Assembly (NCBI GenBank): GCA_027024145.1
Contig: JALVTF010000006.1
Span: forward strand, 1-57,231
Length of the DNA: 57,231 bases
Direction: 5' to 3'
Origin: Campylobacterales bacterium
Lineage (GTDB): Bacteria; Campylobacterota; Campylobacteria; Campylobacterales; Nitratiruptoraceae
Shown one piece after another: positions 43,100-53,238 of this stretch (positions are counted from its first letter, which is position 1; each line of letters opens with the position of its first letter). The notes under the pieces were generated by a model. That model searched no databases and was not told the origin of the DNA. It saw only the letters and a program-made list of their open reading frames with translations. Position numbers and translations under genes: made by a program.

Positions 43100-43156
43100 T
43101 TTCTTAAAAATATTTTAATTTTTGCAACTTTTGTCGCACTCCTTCGCTGCAAACAG

Positions 43157-43165
43157 TGGTATAAT
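43157..43165 (+). promoter_or_regulatory. Extended -10 promoter of the AmrS gene
   Basis: TGGTATAAT is an extended -10 element (TGn plus the perfect TATAAT). It lies 20 bases before the ATG, leaving a leader with AAAAGGAGG. No good -35 box is seen, which an extended -10 does not need. Confidence 0.55.
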
Positions 43166-43185: not shown

Positions 43186-44208
43186 ATGAGTGTGCATGCA
43201 TGGATGAGCAAGAAATTGCCATCAGGAAAGATTCTTTGCGAAGCCTGTGCGCAAGCCTGCAAATTAGATGAAGGCGAATACGGCATATGCGGCGTGCGCA
43301 AAGTCGAAAACGGCGAGCTCAAACTTCTGGTCTACGGCAAGGCCGCGGCCGTGAACGTGGATCCGATAGAGAAAAAACCACTCTTTCATTTCCTGCCCAA
43401 CTCGCTGGTCTTTTCCATCGGTACCGTGGGGTGTAATCTCAGCTGCAGCTTTTGCCAAAACTTCGACATCAGCCAATACCCCCAAGAGCACGACCATAAA
43501 ATCTTCGGCCAGGACCTCCCGCCCCAAATGGCCGTGGATCTCGCGCTCCAATACGGCGCCAAATCGATCGCCTATACCTACAACGAGCCGATCGTGTGGA
43601 TCGAATACAACTACGACATCGCCAAGCTCGCCAAGGAAAAAGGCCTCAAAAACGTCTACGTCACCAGCGGATATGAAACACGCAAAGCGATGGACAAGCT
43701 CGCACCTCTTGTGGATGCGATGAACATCGACCTCAAAGCCTTTACCGATAGATTCTACAAAGAGCTCTGCGGCGCCAGACTCAAGCCTGTCCTCGAAGCC
43801 ATCGAATATGCCTATAAAAAGGATATCTGGATCGAAATCACCACGCTCTTTATCCCAGGCCAGAACGACAGCGAAGAGGAGATGCGCCAGATCGCCGAAT
43901 TCATCGCCGAGCTCGACACCGCCATCCCTTGGCACGTCAGCGGCTTTTATCCTACATACAAGATGACCGACACCAACCCCACACCGCCCGAAACGCTGCT
44001 AAAAGCCTACGAAATCGGCAAGGATGCGGGTTTGAAGTTCGTCTATGTCGGCAACTTCAACGCACCGCAGTTCGAGACCACCTACTGCCCATCCTGCGGC
44101 TTCGCGGTAATCGAGCGCGCCGGCCACATCGGCAGCCAGGTCAAAAACCATCTGGTCGATGGCAAATGCCCAAAATGCGGCACCTTCATCCCGGGAGTGT
44201 GGAGTTAA
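43186..44208 (+). CDS. amrS: AmmeMemoRadiSam-type radical SAM enzyme (AmrS-like)
   Basis: A 340-residue protein with the radical SAM motif CNLSCSFCQN, which binds a 4Fe-4S cluster. A Cys-rich head (C-E-A-C-A-Q-A-C ... C-G-V) and two CxxC pairs at the tail (CPSCG and CPKCG) follow. This domain order is typical of the AmrS family, which works with AMMECR1 and MEMO proteins. Neither partner is in this window. The reaction is not known. Confidence 0.88.
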   Translation: MSVHAWMSKKLPSGKILCEACAQACKLDEGEYGICGVRKVENGELKLLVYGKAAAVNVDPIEKKPLFHFLPNSLVFSIGTVGCNLSCSFCQNFDISQYPQEHDHKIFGQDLPPQMAVDLALQYGAKSIAYTYNEPIVWIEYNYDIAKLAKEKGLKNVYVTSGYETRKAMDKLAPLVDAMNIDLKAFTDRFYKELCGARLKPVLEAIEYAYKKDIWIEITTLFIPGQNDSEEEMRQIAEFIAELDTAIPWHVSGFYPTYKMTDTNPTPPETLLKAYEIGKDAGLKFVYVGNFNAPQFETTYCPSCGFAVIERAGHIGSQVKNHLVDGKCPKCGTFIPGVWS

Positions 44209-47378: not shown

Positions 47379-48068
47379 CTAAACGATTTTACGAATATCT
47401 ACATACTCGCCGCTGGGATACTCCAGGAGTTTAGGGAAGTTATCACTCAGTAGCATGGCCGCATCCATCGGACCCAGGCGCTTGGAGTTGGCCAGGCGCT
47501 GGACGACGGGGAATTTGCTGCGATCGGCGTGGGTGAGGATGTACTCCATCATCGGTGTTTCGATGAGGCCGGGAGCCAAAGCTGTGAGGTGCGTATTTGG
47601 CATCTCGGATGCATAGAGGCGCACCAGCATATTGAGCGCGGCTTTGCTGAGGCTATAGGCGTTCCAGCCTCTTGCGCCACTCACACTGGCACCGCTGCTG
47701 ATGGCCACCACTTGTTTTACGGTACGTTTTTTGAGGATATCCAGCAGCACCTTGTTGGCATAGACGTTGAGATTCATAATAGTTTCTATCTCGTGGATGG
47801 AGGTCTCGCTCATATCCTTGAGCTCACCGAGGATGCCTGCATTGAGGATGGCCAAGTCCAGCTCCACATCGCCCAAGAGCTCTTCCACTACAGGCGCGAT
47901 CTTTTCGAGGCTGTGGAGATTGAGCGGTACGAAATGGAGGTTCGTAAAGCCTTCCAAACTCTTTGGCAAAAAGCGACTCACCGCATAGACCTCTTCGCCG
48001 GCTTGCAAGTAGAGCCTGGCTAGTGCCTCTCCCAGACCGCTGCCGATACCCGTGATGAAGATTTTCAT
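47379..48068 (-). CDS. Short-chain dehydrogenase/reductase (SDR)
   Basis: A 229-residue cytosolic oxidoreductase with the N-terminal nucleotide motif TGIGSGLGEA, the NAG motif (LAILNAG), the catalytic Ser in AISSG and Y-x-x-x-K in AYSLSK. The substrate is not known. Its start overlaps the end of the reverse gyrase gene by 4 bases (ATGA), so it is translated from the same message. It has no evident link to DNA topology. Confidence 0.88.
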   Translation of the reverse strand: MKIFITGIGSGLGEALARLYLQAGEEVYAVSRFLPKSLEGFTNLHFVPLNLHSLEKIAPVVEELLGDVELDLAILNAGILGELKDMSETSIHEIETIMNLNVYANKVLLDILKKRTVKQVVAISSGASVSGARGWNAYSLSKAALNMLVRLYASEMPNTHLTALAPGLIETPMMEYILTHADRSKFPVVQRLANSKRLGPMDAAMLLSDNFPKLLEYPSGEYVDIRKIV

Positions 48069-51000
48069 AGTCGCTCCTGTAAAGTTCTATAGAGATTATA
48101 CAACACCTCTTGATAGTCCGCTTCTCCTCGCTCCACCCGATCCATCACAGCTTCAAGCTCTTTGGTGTAGTGCTCATTGACAAAGGCGTAGATCGCTTTG
48201 TGCTTTCGCAGCTCTTCATAGACACGTATCCCTAATTTCGTGGCGATCAATACGCCCTTTCTTTGGATAATATAGCGGCGCTCTTCAAGTTTTTGGATAG
48301 TGTTGGCATAGGTGGAAGGTCGGCCGATGCCCCGCTCCTTCATCATCTGGATGATCTGCGCATAGGTGTAGTGCGGAACCTTGGGTCGCTCTCTCAAATC
48401 CTTCTGTACGGCTACGTTGCCCTCGCCCACACTGTGCAGCGCCACCGGCCACACCAGATCGATACCGTGGCGCAGGATCTGGCTATAAAAGCGCACTTGG
48501 GCGGCTTGGTCCAGCGCCTCGATGCGCGCCGTGATCTCTTTGGCGATGGTTTCGCGCATTTGCGAGGCTATGAAGTTGCGAAAGATAAGGTCGTAGAGCC
48601 TGATATGGCGACTATCCAACGTGGTGCGACCGCTGAGTGCTAGAAAGCTTCGCAGCTGCTCCGCATCCATCGCGCGGGTGGGTCGGATGCACTCGTGCGC
48701 GCCGCCGGCTTTTGCATGGGTGCGGGGTGTGAAATAGTCGGCGCCGAAACGCTCGGTGATGTACTCCTTGGCGATGGCGATGCCTGCGGCACTCACGCGT
48801 GTAGAATCTGTACGATGGTAGGTAATCAGCCCCGCTTCGAAGAGATCTTGCGCCAATTGCATCGTGGTTTGTGGCGAAAAGTGGAGACGATTTGCCGCCT
48901 CGAAAAGCATCGCATCGGTAGTGAAAGGCTCGCGAAAGAGCGGTACCTCCTCTATTTTCTCATAGCGCACAGTAACTTCTTGGAGTGCATCGAAAAAACT
49001 CTTGGCCGCCTCTTTGTTTTCGAAAACGAACTCCGCCGTGATACCATCCAAAAGCGCTTGCACCACCCAGATGCGCTGCTTCGCTTCATATTCGCACAGC
49101 ACGATCCACTCCAGCACCGCGCTTTGCACCCGTCCGGCACTCAGGGTCTTTCGTCCCAGACGCCGCTGCAAAAACTGGCTCACCGCAAACCCTATCCACC
49201 TATCGGCGATGCGACGCACCAGCTGCGCACGCACCAGATCTTCGTCGAAACTGCGCGGCTCCTCGATGGCTGCATCGAAAGCGCGCTTCGTCACTTCGTG
49301 AAATTCGGCGCGCTTGATGTGGGGGTTGTAGGGTTTTAGATTCAGTGCCACATCGTAGCTGATCTTCTCCCCCTCCACATCGGGGTCGGTGGCGATGAAG
49401 ACCTCTTGCACTTCGATGCCCTCTTCGCGAAGTGTTTGGACGATACGCAGCCGCTGCGCATCGATCGGCTCGAAGATCGGCAGCATCCCTCCATCCATCT
49501 CTACACCGAAATACCCCTCCTCTTTGTTCAGATCAAACAGATGCCCTTTGGATGCGGCGATGAGGAGGATGCGATTTTCCTTGGCCACTTCATAGACCCG
49601 CACCGCACCGAAATCGCGCACCATCGGCTTGCCGTAAAAGCCGGCAATCGTGCGCGCCTTGTTGGGGGATTCGACGATCACGAGGGTTGTGGTAAAAAGA
49701 TCGCGCGCTTCTTGGAGCTTGCCTGCAAGAGAGAGGCGGATACGCTCCCTATCGGCATCGATCTTTGCAAAAATCGCTTCGATATCCACCTCGTCGGCTC
49801 TTTGGAAGGTAATGGCGTCGCTAAACCAGCGCACCTTCTTTTGCAGGCTACAAAAGGCCTTGGCGCTATCGACGAGAGTGAGGGCGAGCCCTTGGCTAAG
49901 GCCCCCGGCATAGAGGCGGCTGGTGCGTCCGCTCGCTTGGATGTAGCCGGTCACGTCGGCGGTAATGAGATGGAACCGCTCATCTTTTACAAGTGCGATG
50001 TTGGGATTTTGGTTGATCTTTTCGATGATGTGGGGTGTGAGCGCTTCCGTGAGCTTTTCGTAGATTTGCGCGATGTGCTCTTTGGCGCTCTGTGTAAGGC
50101 GCTCGGCGGGGATGTGAATGAGCTTTTGCAAATACCCCACGTAGCGCTGCAAATCGGCGAAAAACTCCTCCTCGCGCACCGCAGGCAGGAGCGAGAGCAA
50201 AAAGTAGTAGAGCGTGACGTGATTCGATAGATCCAGCGTGAAGGTGAGCTTGGGCACCCCCACGAAGAGCGCGTAGCGGATGACATCCGGCATATCGATA
50301 CCGCGTGCCAGAGGGTTGCGATAGCTGGCAAACCCCACCAGCACCTGCGTTTTGCCGCTGCGAAAGGCCTCTTCGTCGAAATCTTCGTAGCTCGCTGCTT
50401 CTATCCCCTCATCTTGTAAGAAAGCTACGAACTCTTCGAGACGCTCTTTGGTTTCATTCCCCGGCAAAAAGACTAAACCTCCACTCCCAAACTCCTTGAT
50501 ACGCTCTGCGGCGCGTTGCCACAAATTCCCTGGCTCTTCATAGAGATCCGCCACATTGCGAATCGTGATGGATGGTCTGCTCACCTCAAAGCCCAAGAGC
50601 TCGCGAAAGAGATGAATACGGCGGCTTTTGGGATTCGCCGTGGCACTGGAGACGATGAGGCGGCCACGCGCCTTTTGGCGAAGCAGCTGCACCTCTTCTT
50701 GGAGTTTGGCAAGCTCCTCGGGATCGAGATCGCCTTTTCGTTTGGCATCGATGATCTGGAGCGCCCTTTGGATATCGGCCTCGCTAAAGCCAAGGAGCAT
50801 CAAGACTTTGTCGATATTGCGAGCACTCTTGAGGATGCTATCCACATCGTCGACGAAAACGAAGGCGAAAGCTTTTGGAATGAGAGCGAAGTTGCGATAC
50901 AAAAAGCTCGTGGTGGTGATGAGGATACGAAAATCGCCTGCAGCAATGCGCTGCTTCACAGCTTCCTTTTGCTTGCCCGAAGCGCGCGAATCGTAGAGAA

Positions 51001-51412
51001 GCGGCTCCTCGCCCAGAGCCTGGAGTTTTTTGAACGCCTGCTTGGCCAAAAGCTGCGTAGGGAAGATGAGGTAGGACTTTTCTGGCAGGTAACTGGCCAG
51101 CGCAAGTCCGAAGGTGGTCTTACCCACGCCCGTGGGTGCCAAAAGCGCAAAGGAGCGCCCCAGAAAAAAGCGTCGCGCCCACATCTGCTGCAAACTTCTT
51201 AGGCCAAAGCCCATCTTGGCTGCAAAGAAGCGGCCAAACTCCTCGGCCTCGTCCCACACTCTACAGACTTTGCGAAATGCCTTGTCGGCCACCTCGCACG
51301 GTTCGGCGGATTCCGGCATACACCGCCTGCATAGTAGCCCCGCCGCAAGTCTGTCGCTCTCGATATCACCCCCGCAGTTGGGACACATCTGTTTGTAGCG
51401 AAGCGCTATCAC
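48065..51412 (-). CDS. rgy: Reverse gyrase
   Basis: A 1115-residue protein joining a SF2 helicase-like half to a type IA topoisomerase half. It introduces positive supercoils with ATP and is the hallmark enzyme of life above about 60 degrees C. The N-terminal zinc finger has Cys10, Cys13, Cys28 and Cys31. Walker A APTGVGKTT is near 92 and the motif II VDDVDS near 187. The TOPRIM start (VIVESPNKARTI) is near 579 and the active Tyr is in LITYHRTDSTRVS, near 863. A second zinc finger in the topoisomerase half is not seen. The gene overlaps both neighbours by 4 bases. Confidence 0.95.
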   Translation of the reverse strand: MIALRYKQMCPNCGGDIESDRLAAGLLCRRCMPESAEPCEVADKAFRKVCRVWDEAEEFGRFFAAKMGFGLRSLQQMWARRFFLGRSFALLAPTGVGKTTFGLALASYLPEKSYLIFPTQLLAKQAFKKLQALGEEPLLYDSRASGKQKEAVKQRIAAGDFRILITTTSFLYRNFALIPKAFAFVFVDDVDSILKSARNIDKVLMLLGFSEADIQRALQIIDAKRKGDLDPEELAKLQEEVQLLRQKARGRLIVSSATANPKSRRIHLFRELLGFEVSRPSITIRNVADLYEEPGNLWQRAAERIKEFGSGGLVFLPGNETKERLEEFVAFLQDEGIEAASYEDFDEEAFRSGKTQVLVGFASYRNPLARGIDMPDVIRYALFVGVPKLTFTLDLSNHVTLYYFLLSLLPAVREEEFFADLQRYVGYLQKLIHIPAERLTQSAKEHIAQIYEKLTEALTPHIIEKINQNPNIALVKDERFHLITADVTGYIQASGRTSRLYAGGLSQGLALTLVDSAKAFCSLQKKVRWFSDAITFQRADEVDIEAIFAKIDADRERIRLSLAGKLQEARDLFTTTLVIVESPNKARTIAGFYGKPMVRDFGAVRVYEVAKENRILLIAASKGHLFDLNKEEGYFGVEMDGGMLPIFEPIDAQRLRIVQTLREEGIEVQEVFIATDPDVEGEKISYDVALNLKPYNPHIKRAEFHEVTKRAFDAAIEEPRSFDEDLVRAQLVRRIADRWIGFAVSQFLQRRLGRKTLSAGRVQSAVLEWIVLCEYEAKQRIWVVQALLDGITAEFVFENKEAAKSFFDALQEVTVRYEKIEEVPLFREPFTTDAMLFEAANRLHFSPQTTMQLAQDLFEAGLITYHRTDSTRVSAAGIAIAKEYITERFGADYFTPRTHAKAGGAHECIRPTRAMDAEQLRSFLALSGRTTLDSRHIRLYDLIFRNFIASQMRETIAKEITARIEALDQAAQVRFYSQILRHGIDLVWPVALHSVGEGNVAVQKDLRERPKVPHYTYAQIIQMMKERGIGRPSTYANTIQKLEERRYIIQRKGVLIATKLGIRVYEELRKHKAIYAFVNEHYTKELEAVMDRVERGEADYQEVLYNLYRTLQERL

Positions 51413-52068
51413 ATCTTCGCCTCGAGGTACTCTTTGATTTCGTGCAAGAGCTCGGCCGGCGTCTTGATGGGATAGAGAAGCCCCTCGGCCACTTCTGCGC
51501 CGCTATGGCCTTTGATGGTGATGTTTGCCAGTCTTTGTGCCAACACTTTGGCTTCTACGATAGGATAGTCGATGCCTTTGGTGTGTTTGAGCACCTGATA
51601 GGCCCAAGGACTTTCGCAGCTTGCGGCTTTGAGCGCTTCGCCGGCCATCTGGTGGCAAAAGTCCAGCATCGTTTGCGAATCTTGCCCCTCTTTGACGAGC
51701 TTGTAGGCCAGTTTCGCCACGCCGCCTGCTGTGTGGACTTTGAGCTCTTTTTTCTCTTCGGCGCTGAGCTCGTCGATGTGCTGGATCTTGTACATCGCCG
51801 CATCCGGGTCAGCACGCAGGATATTGCGCACGGTATTGCGCGTCAGTTCCACATATTCGGCGATATCGTCTTCGGTGCGTAGGTATTCTTCATGCAGCAC
51901 CACGGCAAATGCCGCACGTGCCAGGCTTGGCAGCCACGTAAGCGTGCGATACTCCGCCAACTGCTTGAGCCCTCCCAAAAGATCGATCGCTTTGAAAAAG
52001 ACGCGTTCGACCAGTCGCTCCAGCCCCTTTTCGTCGATAGTCAGTTCGTTACCGCTTAAAATTATCAT
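51409..52068 (-). CDS. Helix-turn-helix 'near-KaiC' regulatory protein
   Basis: A 219-residue protein with the segment LTWLPSLARAAFAVVLHEEYLRTEDDIAEYVELTRNTVRNILRADPDAAM, at about residues 43-93. This matches the small 'near-KaiC' domain known mainly from archaea, whose genes sit beside KaiC-like ATPases. The I-A-x-x-x-x-L-T-x-x-T-V-R stretch is a helix-turn-helix. The start at 52068 follows AAGGAGG. It overlaps reverse gyrase by 4 bases, so both are translated together. DNA binding is probable; the target is unknown. Confidence 0.8.
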   Translation of the reverse strand: MIILSGNELTIDEKGLERLVERVFFKAIDLLGGLKQLAEYRTLTWLPSLARAAFAVVLHEEYLRTEDDIAEYVELTRNTVRNILRADPDAAMYKIQHIDELSAEEKKELKVHTAGGVAKLAYKLVKEGQDSQTMLDFCHQMAGEALKAASCESPWAYQVLKHTKGIDYPIVEAKVLAQRLANITIKGHSGAEVAEGLLYPIKTPAELLHEIKEYLEAKM

Positions 52069-52127
52069 CTTCGCCTCCTTTTTCAGATGGTGGTATTGTG
52101 GAAAATTACAAGTCGAGCGAATGCTTT

Positions 52128-52247
52128 GCGATTGCAATGTGCACGGCGTATGGTAGCTTTAGCTAAAAAAGCGCGCCAAACCCGAAGGGCGCTTGTCGTT
52201 CGCGCTTTTTAATACGACGTGCACATGGTCGTACAGCGAGCAATCGC
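52128..52247. repeat. Nested inverted repeats between the KaiC-like and near-KaiC genes
   Basis: ATGTGCACGGCGTAT (52137-52151) pairs with ATACGACGTGCACAT (52212-52226) in 14 of 15 positions. GCGATTGC (52128-52135) pairs with GCAATCGC (52240-52247). GTGCAC is itself palindromic. The repeats surround a terminator hairpin. They may be operators for the helix-turn-helix protein. Confidence 0.6.
52166..52210 (-). terminator. Terminator after the KaiC-like gene
   Basis: AAAAAGCGCG (52166-52175) and CGCGCTTTTT (52201-52210) are exact complements. An inner GCGCC/GGCGC pair offers a second fold. Read leftward it has a T tract after a GC stem, as an intrinsic terminator should. It separates the KaiC-like gene from the reverse-gyrase operon. 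Confidence 0.75.
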
Positions 52248-52282
52248 AACTCGCATGAGTGAGATTTGGTAATTTTTCGCAA

Positions 52283-53164
52283 TCAGCCTTCTCCCAATGG
52301 CCCCAAAATCCTCACGATCCCAGTATCGGTGATCTCCATATAGTGCGTCTTGCTATCGTGTCCGCTCATGCGACAGCCGTCTATCCGAAAGAGCCGCACC
52401 AGATCGCCCAGCTTCGCTTTGTACATACGCGCGGCGTACTGGCTGGCGATGAGCTCCTTGGCCACCACCATCGTGCCATCCACGATGTGCCCCACGGCAT
52501 ACCCACCTGCCGCCTCGGCGCTCAGCTCCTCGTGGCCGCTGCGCTTTTGGCTGATGAAGATGGCTGTTTGGTACCACTTTTTCATAAAGTTGTAGACCCT
52601 GCGCACGATGGCTCTGGCCATCATCTCCTTGTTTTCGAAAAGCCCTGTAATGGAGTCGATGACGGTGAATTTGATGTCATACTCCTTGATAGCGTAGGCC
52701 AGCGTGGCCAGAAGGTCCGGGACGTTTTCGCGAAGTTTCGTGTGGCTGGCAGCATCGATGAGGATGATGTTGTCTTGGAATGTGTCGAAGTCGTACCCCA
52801 TCGCCAGCGCGCGATACTTGATGGATGCGATGACGAAATTGGCCGGTGTCTCGACGGTGATGAAGGCCACCTTGTCGCCTCTATGCGCCTGCTCTACGGC
52901 GAACTGCTCGGCCATGAGACTCTTACCGGTATCGCTCACGCCTGTGATGTTGAAGACGCTATATTTTGGGATGCCGCCGAGCGGTACTTGCTCCAATTTG
53001 CCCTTTTTTTCTTTGACGGTAAAAAAGAGCTCATCAAGCCCCTCGATGCCCGTAGGCACTCCCTCTATTTCTGGCGCTTTGGCCAGCGCTTCGGAGCCTA
53101 TGAAGATACTCTCTTTGACGACTTCCGGTTCGTGATAGGAGACAGGATAGCTATTTTCGGCCAT
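52283..53164 (-). CDS. Single-domain KaiC-like ATPase (archaeal type)
   Basis: A 293-residue RecA-fold protein with Walker A GVSDTGKS at 75-82, a single catalytic-type Glu near 105 (VET) and Walker B VIDS with Asp170. Its head T-G-I-E-G-L-D-E-L-F-F is that of KaiC-related proteins. Canonical circadian KaiC has two domains and a double Glu, so this is not a clock gene. It belongs with the archaeal KaiC-type family that occurs beside near-KaiC proteins. Start ATG 53164 follows AAAGGAGGAG. It is divergent from upp. Confidence 0.87.
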   Translation of the reverse strand: MAENSYPVSYHEPEVVKESIFIGSEALAKAPEIEGVPTGIEGLDELFFTVKEKKGKLEQVPLGGIPKYSVFNITGVSDTGKSLMAEQFAVEQAHRGDKVAFITVETPANFVIASIKYRALAMGYDFDTFQDNIILIDAASHTKLRENVPDLLATLAYAIKEYDIKFTVIDSITGLFENKEMMARAIVRRVYNFMKKWYQTAIFISQKRSGHEELSAEAAGGYAVGHIVDGTMVVAKELIASQYAARMYKAKLGDLVRLFRIDGCRMSGHDSKTHYMEITDTGIVRILGPLGEG

Positions 53165-53182: not shown

Positions 53183-53207
53183 ATTATAACGCAAAGCGCG
53201 CTATAAT
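53183..53207. promoter_or_regulatory. Divergent -10 boxes for upp and the KaiC-like gene
   Basis: TATAAT occurs on the plus strand (53202-53207) and on the minus strand (53183-53188), in a 74-base gap. They point at upp and at the KaiC-like gene respectively. The -35 boxes are weak on both sides. The two polymerases would compete. Confidence 0.5.
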
Positions 53208-53238
53208 GTGTGCAACTTTTCTAACAAAAGGAGCGCCA

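Follow-up and report, generated by a model that had tools for sequence, protein, structure and literature searches.

Reverse gyrase as the distal gene of a conserved kaiC2-nk-rgy locus with a predicted stress promoter in the Nitratiruptor family

What places the gene for reverse gyrase, the marker enzyme of high-temperature life whose control is poorly known, directly behind genes for a KaiC-type ATPase and a near-KaiC protein, and what turns it on? Here we examine the kaiC2-nk-rgy locus of a member of the Nitratiruptoraceae (Campylobacterota), contained in a 57,231-nt stretch of contig JALVTF010000006.1 from assembly GCA_027024145.1 (the window, to whose full length all positions refer). Our preferred reading, held with moderate confidence and drawn from comparison of sequences, is that rgy is the distal gene of a kaiC2-nk-rgy stress operon, recruited with kaiC2-nk into a heat and redox regulon, and that KaiC2 and nk act in the same process. 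The parts belong to known families; the operon, the switch shared with dnaK and the shared history of the genes appear to be new, and in the literature searched a single paper mentions both KaiC and reverse gyrase, in separate contexts.

All three genes lie on the minus strand at the places named in the original prediction, and all score over curated cut-offs. The first gene, kaiC2 (52283..53164), encodes the single-domain KaiC ATPase that had been proposed there, a member of the thermo_KaiC_2 family (TIGR03878, 452 bits against a cut-off of 232, model positions 1-258 of 259) with one KaiC domain, in the alignment of which the Walker A region (DTGKS) and the Walker B aspartate are invariant. 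The second, nk (51409..52068), encodes a near-KaiC helix-turn-helix (HTH) protein that belongs to near_KaiC_dom (TIGR03879), both by its score (121.8 bits against 65) and by adjoining a KaiC gene. The third, rgy (48065..51412), matches TIGR01054 at 1185 bits (cut-off 472, model positions 1-1170 of 1172) and carries an N-terminal zinc finger (zf_Rg) together with DEAD helicase, Toprim and Topoisom_bac domains in Pfam; by domains and score its product is a reverse gyrase, with predicted ATP-dependent positive supercoiling activity. Direct reading of the sequence bears out the claimed overlap of four bases (GTGA) between nk, which ends ATG TGA, and rgy, which begins GTG A, with GAGG shortly upstream of the GTG start. 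Hints that nk is an HTH protein that may bind DNA come from the family model, from weak HTH matches in 33 of 38 family members (with sigma region 4 included, such matches span 28-33 of the 38) and from an AlphaFold2 model that is helical with a mean predicted local distance difference test (pLDDT) score of 85. A fold search with this model returned no match at E <= 0.001, only weak ParB-like ones, and was consequently left unused for the function of nk; a sequence search for relatives of nk in the PDB gave matches at chance level only.

The order and strand of kaiC2-nk-rgy are kept in 18 Nitratiruptor-family genomes, from a sample of three group-coded genera, while the genes outside the trio change. 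With L056, the closest relative, set aside, family members are ∼52-72% (rgy), 76-88% (KaiC) and 64-88% (nk) identical to the window, and throughout the family nk and rgy overlap or sit a few base pairs (bp) apart. The trio is also present in Persephonella-type Aquificota (L093, L095-L098), where coordinates place it in 11 genomes (G282, G283, G390-392, G395-397, G399-401) with ∼75-85 bp between nk and rgy. Occurrence in 18 family genomes and in Persephonella-type Aquificota puts this gene order far beyond chance. In one member of the Hydrogenothermaceae (L113, on a 420-kb contig) kaiC2-nk and a Thermodesulfobacteria-type rgy point away from each other across a gap of well under 130 bp. Elsewhere most kaiC2-nk pairs do not adjoin rgy, and in the Nautiliaceae the pair and rgy are apart. 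The original prediction had named rare adjacency of the trio as a sign against its proposal; across all bacteria adjacency is indeed confined to a minority of KaiC2-bearing genomes, whereas within the Nitratiruptor family and the Persephonella types it is not rare.

Comparison among relatives revealed the promoter; a sigma-70 scan of the region gave promoters no more frequently than shuffled sequence. We compared 18 regions upstream of kaiC2, 17 from trio loci and one (L069) from a kaiC2-nk pair without rgy in another family of the order. Each of the 18 has a -10 element just before kaiC2, of the TATAAT type (TACAAT or TAAGAT in three), and 15 have a dyad centred near -41, its right half ending 21-22 bp ahead of the -10; the sequence around both elements mostly differs among the regions. 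In the window, the -10 element TATAAT (53183..53188, minus strand) precedes the start codon of kaiC2 by 18 bp, and the candidate stress dyad TGTTAGAAAAGTTGCA (53211..53226, minus strand) lies 22 bp from the -10. Scored with a matrix built without the window's own and three other KaiC sites, this dyad reaches 14.2 bits, the second best site in the window. A single promoter of this kind before kaiC2, with its TATAAT-type -10 and its dyad near -41, would drive all three genes.

The same dyad also occurs at stress genes. A search of 22 family genomes for the pattern AAGTNGCA-N20-23-TANAAT gave 2-10 matches per genome, some within coding sequence; 58 of the 91 distinct matches inspected (L300-L389) precede a gene with a ribosome site. 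Sites before genes are the more strongly palindromic, with 3.4 of 5 pairs against 1.8 for the remainder, and the same stress genes recur among them in different genomes. Ten family genomes, among them this one (TGCTACTTAAGTAGCA, L332), have the dyad immediately before dnaK with the spacing to the -10 that the operon shows, which is the pattern expected of a regulon shared with dnaK. Further genes with the dyad in front encode YfdX, DUF505, 1-Cys peroxiredoxin, thioredoxin 2, rhodanese, Memo and M23 peptidase proteins (Pfam assignments); one Memo gene (L347) follows a weaker match. With a matrix built from sites before genes and excluding the KaiC sites among the pattern matches, a site was found at 15 of 18 kaiC2 promoters and at just 2 of the 140 further gene starts in these loci, an enrichment of p = 3e-16 that overstates independence, the loci being related. 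One of these two starts belongs to the AmmeMemoRadiSam radical SAM gene of the window (43186..44208, plus strand; TIGR04337, 366.8 bits), a predicted regulon member, which is preceded by a second stress dyad copy, TGCAACTTTTGTCGCA (43123..43138, plus strand), the best matrix site in the window at 19.8 bits and 21 bp before a TATAAT at 43160-43165 on the same strand. Upstream of rgy genes unlinked to the pair, in Nautiliaceae or elsewhere, no convincing dyad site was found. As an observation on the family as a whole, the consensus TGCTACTTAAGTAGCA, ∼21 bp before TATAAT, marks a predicted heat and redox regulon across it.

Two family members bear on which protein would read the dyad. Neither nk nor KaiC2 was found on searching G016 and G020, and rgy was not found over the cut-off in G016 (G020 was not searched for rgy); both genomes keep a perfect dyad at dnaK. 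It follows that nk is not the sole reader of the dyad and that a different factor must read it. Placed near -41, the dyad resembles a class II activator site; repression through it is equally possible.

Beyond the shared locus, KaiC2 is found almost only in the company of reverse gyrase. Among 249 Campylobacteria, rgy over the cut-off was present in 13 genomes and KaiC2 in 10, all of them among the 13 (Fisher p ∼1e-15, although these genomes represent only two families and hence few evolutionary events). Among 50 KaiC2-bearing genomes taken from the genome collection, rgy passes the cut-off in 40, and ∼5 more contain fragments of it. Reverse gyrase without KaiC2 was seen in G075, in G082 (taken as Nautilia profundicola) and in G255 (partial), so that KaiC2 nearly implies rgy and the converse does not hold. 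The Aquificota, where nk occurs in 116 of 136 genomes, rgy in 123 and both in 109 (Fisher p 0.004, with incomplete genomes assembled from metagenomes adding noise), show that the near-KaiC protein is not, as had been supposed, known mainly from archaea. No near-KaiC protein was confirmed in viral contigs.

The trees of nk and rgy, which have SH-aLRT (an approximate likelihood ratio test) support only and contain long branches, share several groupings. Both place L113 with Thermodesulfobacteria, Sulfurihydrogenibium with Thermocrinis and Hydrogenobaculum, and Nitratiruptor, Nautiliaceae and Persephonella/Hydrogenothermaceae together, and they suggest exchange between Aquificota and Campylobacterota, in line with the transfer that had been proposed. 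The exception is Caldimicrobium, whose nk and KaiC group with Aquificota and whose rgy groups with Thermodesulfobacteria. Partial Mantel tests of nk against rgy given rpoB gave r = 0.57 for 38 genomes, 0.53 for 28 and 0.48 for 22, and r = 0.48 for the 27 genomes without linkage (p <= 0.004 throughout). The conservation of the operon in two phyla, the near confinement of KaiC2 to genomes with rgy and these correlated histories support a functional link of KaiC2 and near-KaiC with reverse gyrase, as the original prediction had suspected.

The KaiC2-nk pair itself is found in a range of settings. The 80 loci kept from the genome collection appear bacterial, and nk adjoins a KaiC gene in most bacterial loci, the Aquificaceae types excepted: in genomes of this type (L138-L161) KaiC2 has no adjacent near-KaiC gene, and several of them carry nk at a separate site. 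In Thermodesulfobacterium-type loci (L124, L131, L133, L148) the same-strand gene after kaiC2-nk is the chromosome condensation gene smc (TIGR02168, over the cut-off). One genome, G018, has a second thermo_KaiC_2 copy (L269, G018:C1:1386427-1387200), although only one near-KaiC gene was found in it. KaiC2 contigs resembling those of vent bacteria were also seen in metagenome-assembled genomes named Deltaproteobacteria, Bacteroidales, Omnitrophota and Dojkabacteria (L087, L109, L121, L134), some of which may be misbinned.

We would read these observations as follows. KaiC2-nk would be a thermophile-wide two-gene module that co-occurs and shares its history with rgy even where the genes are unlinked, most likely acting in the same process as rgy, whether that concerns the topology of DNA or how genes are expressed at high temperature. 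Throughout the Nitratiruptor family a transcription factor other than nk would read the dyad and would also control the genes for dnaK, thioredoxin, 1-Cys peroxiredoxin, rhodanese, YfdX and AmmeMemoRadiSam. Since the operon has the same predicted switch as dnaK and antioxidant genes, rgy is probably part of the general stress response, turned on within it rather than by its KaiC partner, and its level would rise with heat or redox stress. The nk protein would be the DNA-binding part and KaiC2 its ATPase switch, working alongside the stress factor and not replacing it. Through operon structure, co-occurrence and common history the locus would link reverse gyrase to a KaiC family of thermophilic bacteria that is uncharacterised, and it offers a concrete, testable case in the sequenced vent bacterium Nitratiruptor sp. 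SB155-2, which we take to be G012.

Several points weigh against this account. The operon dyad of the window is imperfect, its arms pairing at 3 of 5 positions, and the trio loci L058, L070 and L071 have none. Other lineages have kaiC2-nk beside unrelated genes (smc, pyruvate kinase, GAPDH, argG, ndk). When the Mantel comparison of nk with rgy is made on 13 very distant representatives, r drops to 0.31 (p = 0.10), and rpoB was the one control gene in these tests. Within the window, moreover, the 214-bp gap that separates kaiC2 from nk (52069-52282) contains a large imperfect palindrome. This is a dispersed repeat (52085..52278, boundaries approximate, no strand assigned) whose core hairpin resembles a terminator, and it may uncouple nk-rgy from kaiC2 here. 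The region folds as a long palindrome (fold z-score -3.0). The repeat-rich spacer of the original prediction is one copy of a repeat family rather than an element of the conserved operon, with 12 matches in this genome and 4 and 6 in two close relatives; no match was found in G012 and G015, two of four relatives searched. Copies (L194-L200, L202) align over ∼180 bp. An Rfam search of the spacer region in the window gave no match, and most operon-bearing relatives in the family have 8-100 bp between kaiC2 and nk; with the dispersed nature of the repeat, this led us to reject the spacer as a conserved operator or known RNA.

The explanation that survives best beside ours, possible if on the unlikely side, is that KaiC2-nk and rgy are independent heat-adaptation genes which became linked by chance and spread by transfer among vent bacteria, their co-occurrence mirroring nothing but habitat. 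The occurrence of kaiC2-nk in varied contexts keeps this explanation alive, as do the genomes with rgy and no KaiC2 and the transfers between Aquificota and Campylobacterota that the trees suggest, and it is compatible with the stress-regulon part of our account. Against it, the gene order is kept while rgy diverges by up to 48% within the family and the flanking genes change, L113 has its own, divergent linkage to another type of rgy, and the histories are correlated in genomes without linkage.

A more specific role for the pair is tentative and to our minds rather improbable: nk and KaiC2 may form a dedicated partner of reverse gyrase that is switched by ATP, in which nk would recruit or restrain the enzyme or shape the DNA according to the nucleotide state of KaiC2. 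If true, KaiC2-nk would tie high-temperature DNA supercoiling to cellular energy in the thermophiles that bear the pair.

We think it improbable that, as first proposed, KaiC2 senses ATP and near-KaiC is a transcription factor that controls rgy by binding in or near the spacer. An HTH-type protein does share an operon with rgy, with a KaiC-type ATPase beside it, the divergent layout of L113 resembles that of a regulator and its target, and nk could still act at another site. However, 52069-52282, put forward as the near-KaiC binding region, is a dispersed repeat specific to the lineage and missing from most relatives; most KaiC2-nk pairs lie away from rgy; and the predicted operator at the operon promoter also stands before dnaK and redox genes, and persists at dnaK in the two relatives where nk was not found. 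In addition, rgy of N. profundicola is induced >100-fold at 65 C (PMC2628731) and KaiC2 was not found in G082, taken as that species, so heat induction of rgy has no need of the pair. Finally, that the dyad is an ordinary promoter feature of the family with no regulon meaning is very improbable, for despite the several pattern matches in each genome, some inside coding sequence, hardly any other gene start in the same loci carries it, one of the two that do being AmmeMemoRadiSam, and the matches before genes are much the more palindromic and recur on the same stress genes across genomes.

Our preferred account, a stress operon with rgy as its distal gene, can be set beside several known systems. 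The N. profundicola gene likewise encodes a reverse gyrase of vent Campylobacterota, and differs in belonging to another rgy clade (45-48% identity), in being unlinked to kaiC2-nk and in that no dyad was found upstream. In the archaeon Pyrococcus furiosus, a KaiC-domain protein (PF1931) and a predicted regulator (PF1932), with neighbouring numbers, are heat-induced targets of Phr, with a different operator and, in the part of the source consulted, no reported linkage to reverse gyrase (PMC10746257); the two, which may or may not belong to TIGR03878/TIGR03879, count as external support for our account. Cyanobacterial circadian KaiC shares the KaiC-type ATPase domain, but the protein here has a single domain and scores 36.7 bits against the circ_KaiC cut-off of 546, and thus falls outside that family. 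In heat-shock control by HrcA/CIRCE and HspR/HAIR a dyad operator stands at dnaK, as does the dyad of the Nitratiruptor family, the consensus of which (TGCTACTTAAGTAGCA) we take to be unlike either CIRCE or HAIR. The closest counterpart is the thermo_KaiC_2/near_KaiC_dom pair itself, for which we know of no tested function: the window matches it in scores far over the cut-offs and in adjacent genes, as in most relatives examined, and departs from it in that reverse gyrase has here been added as the third gene of the operon.

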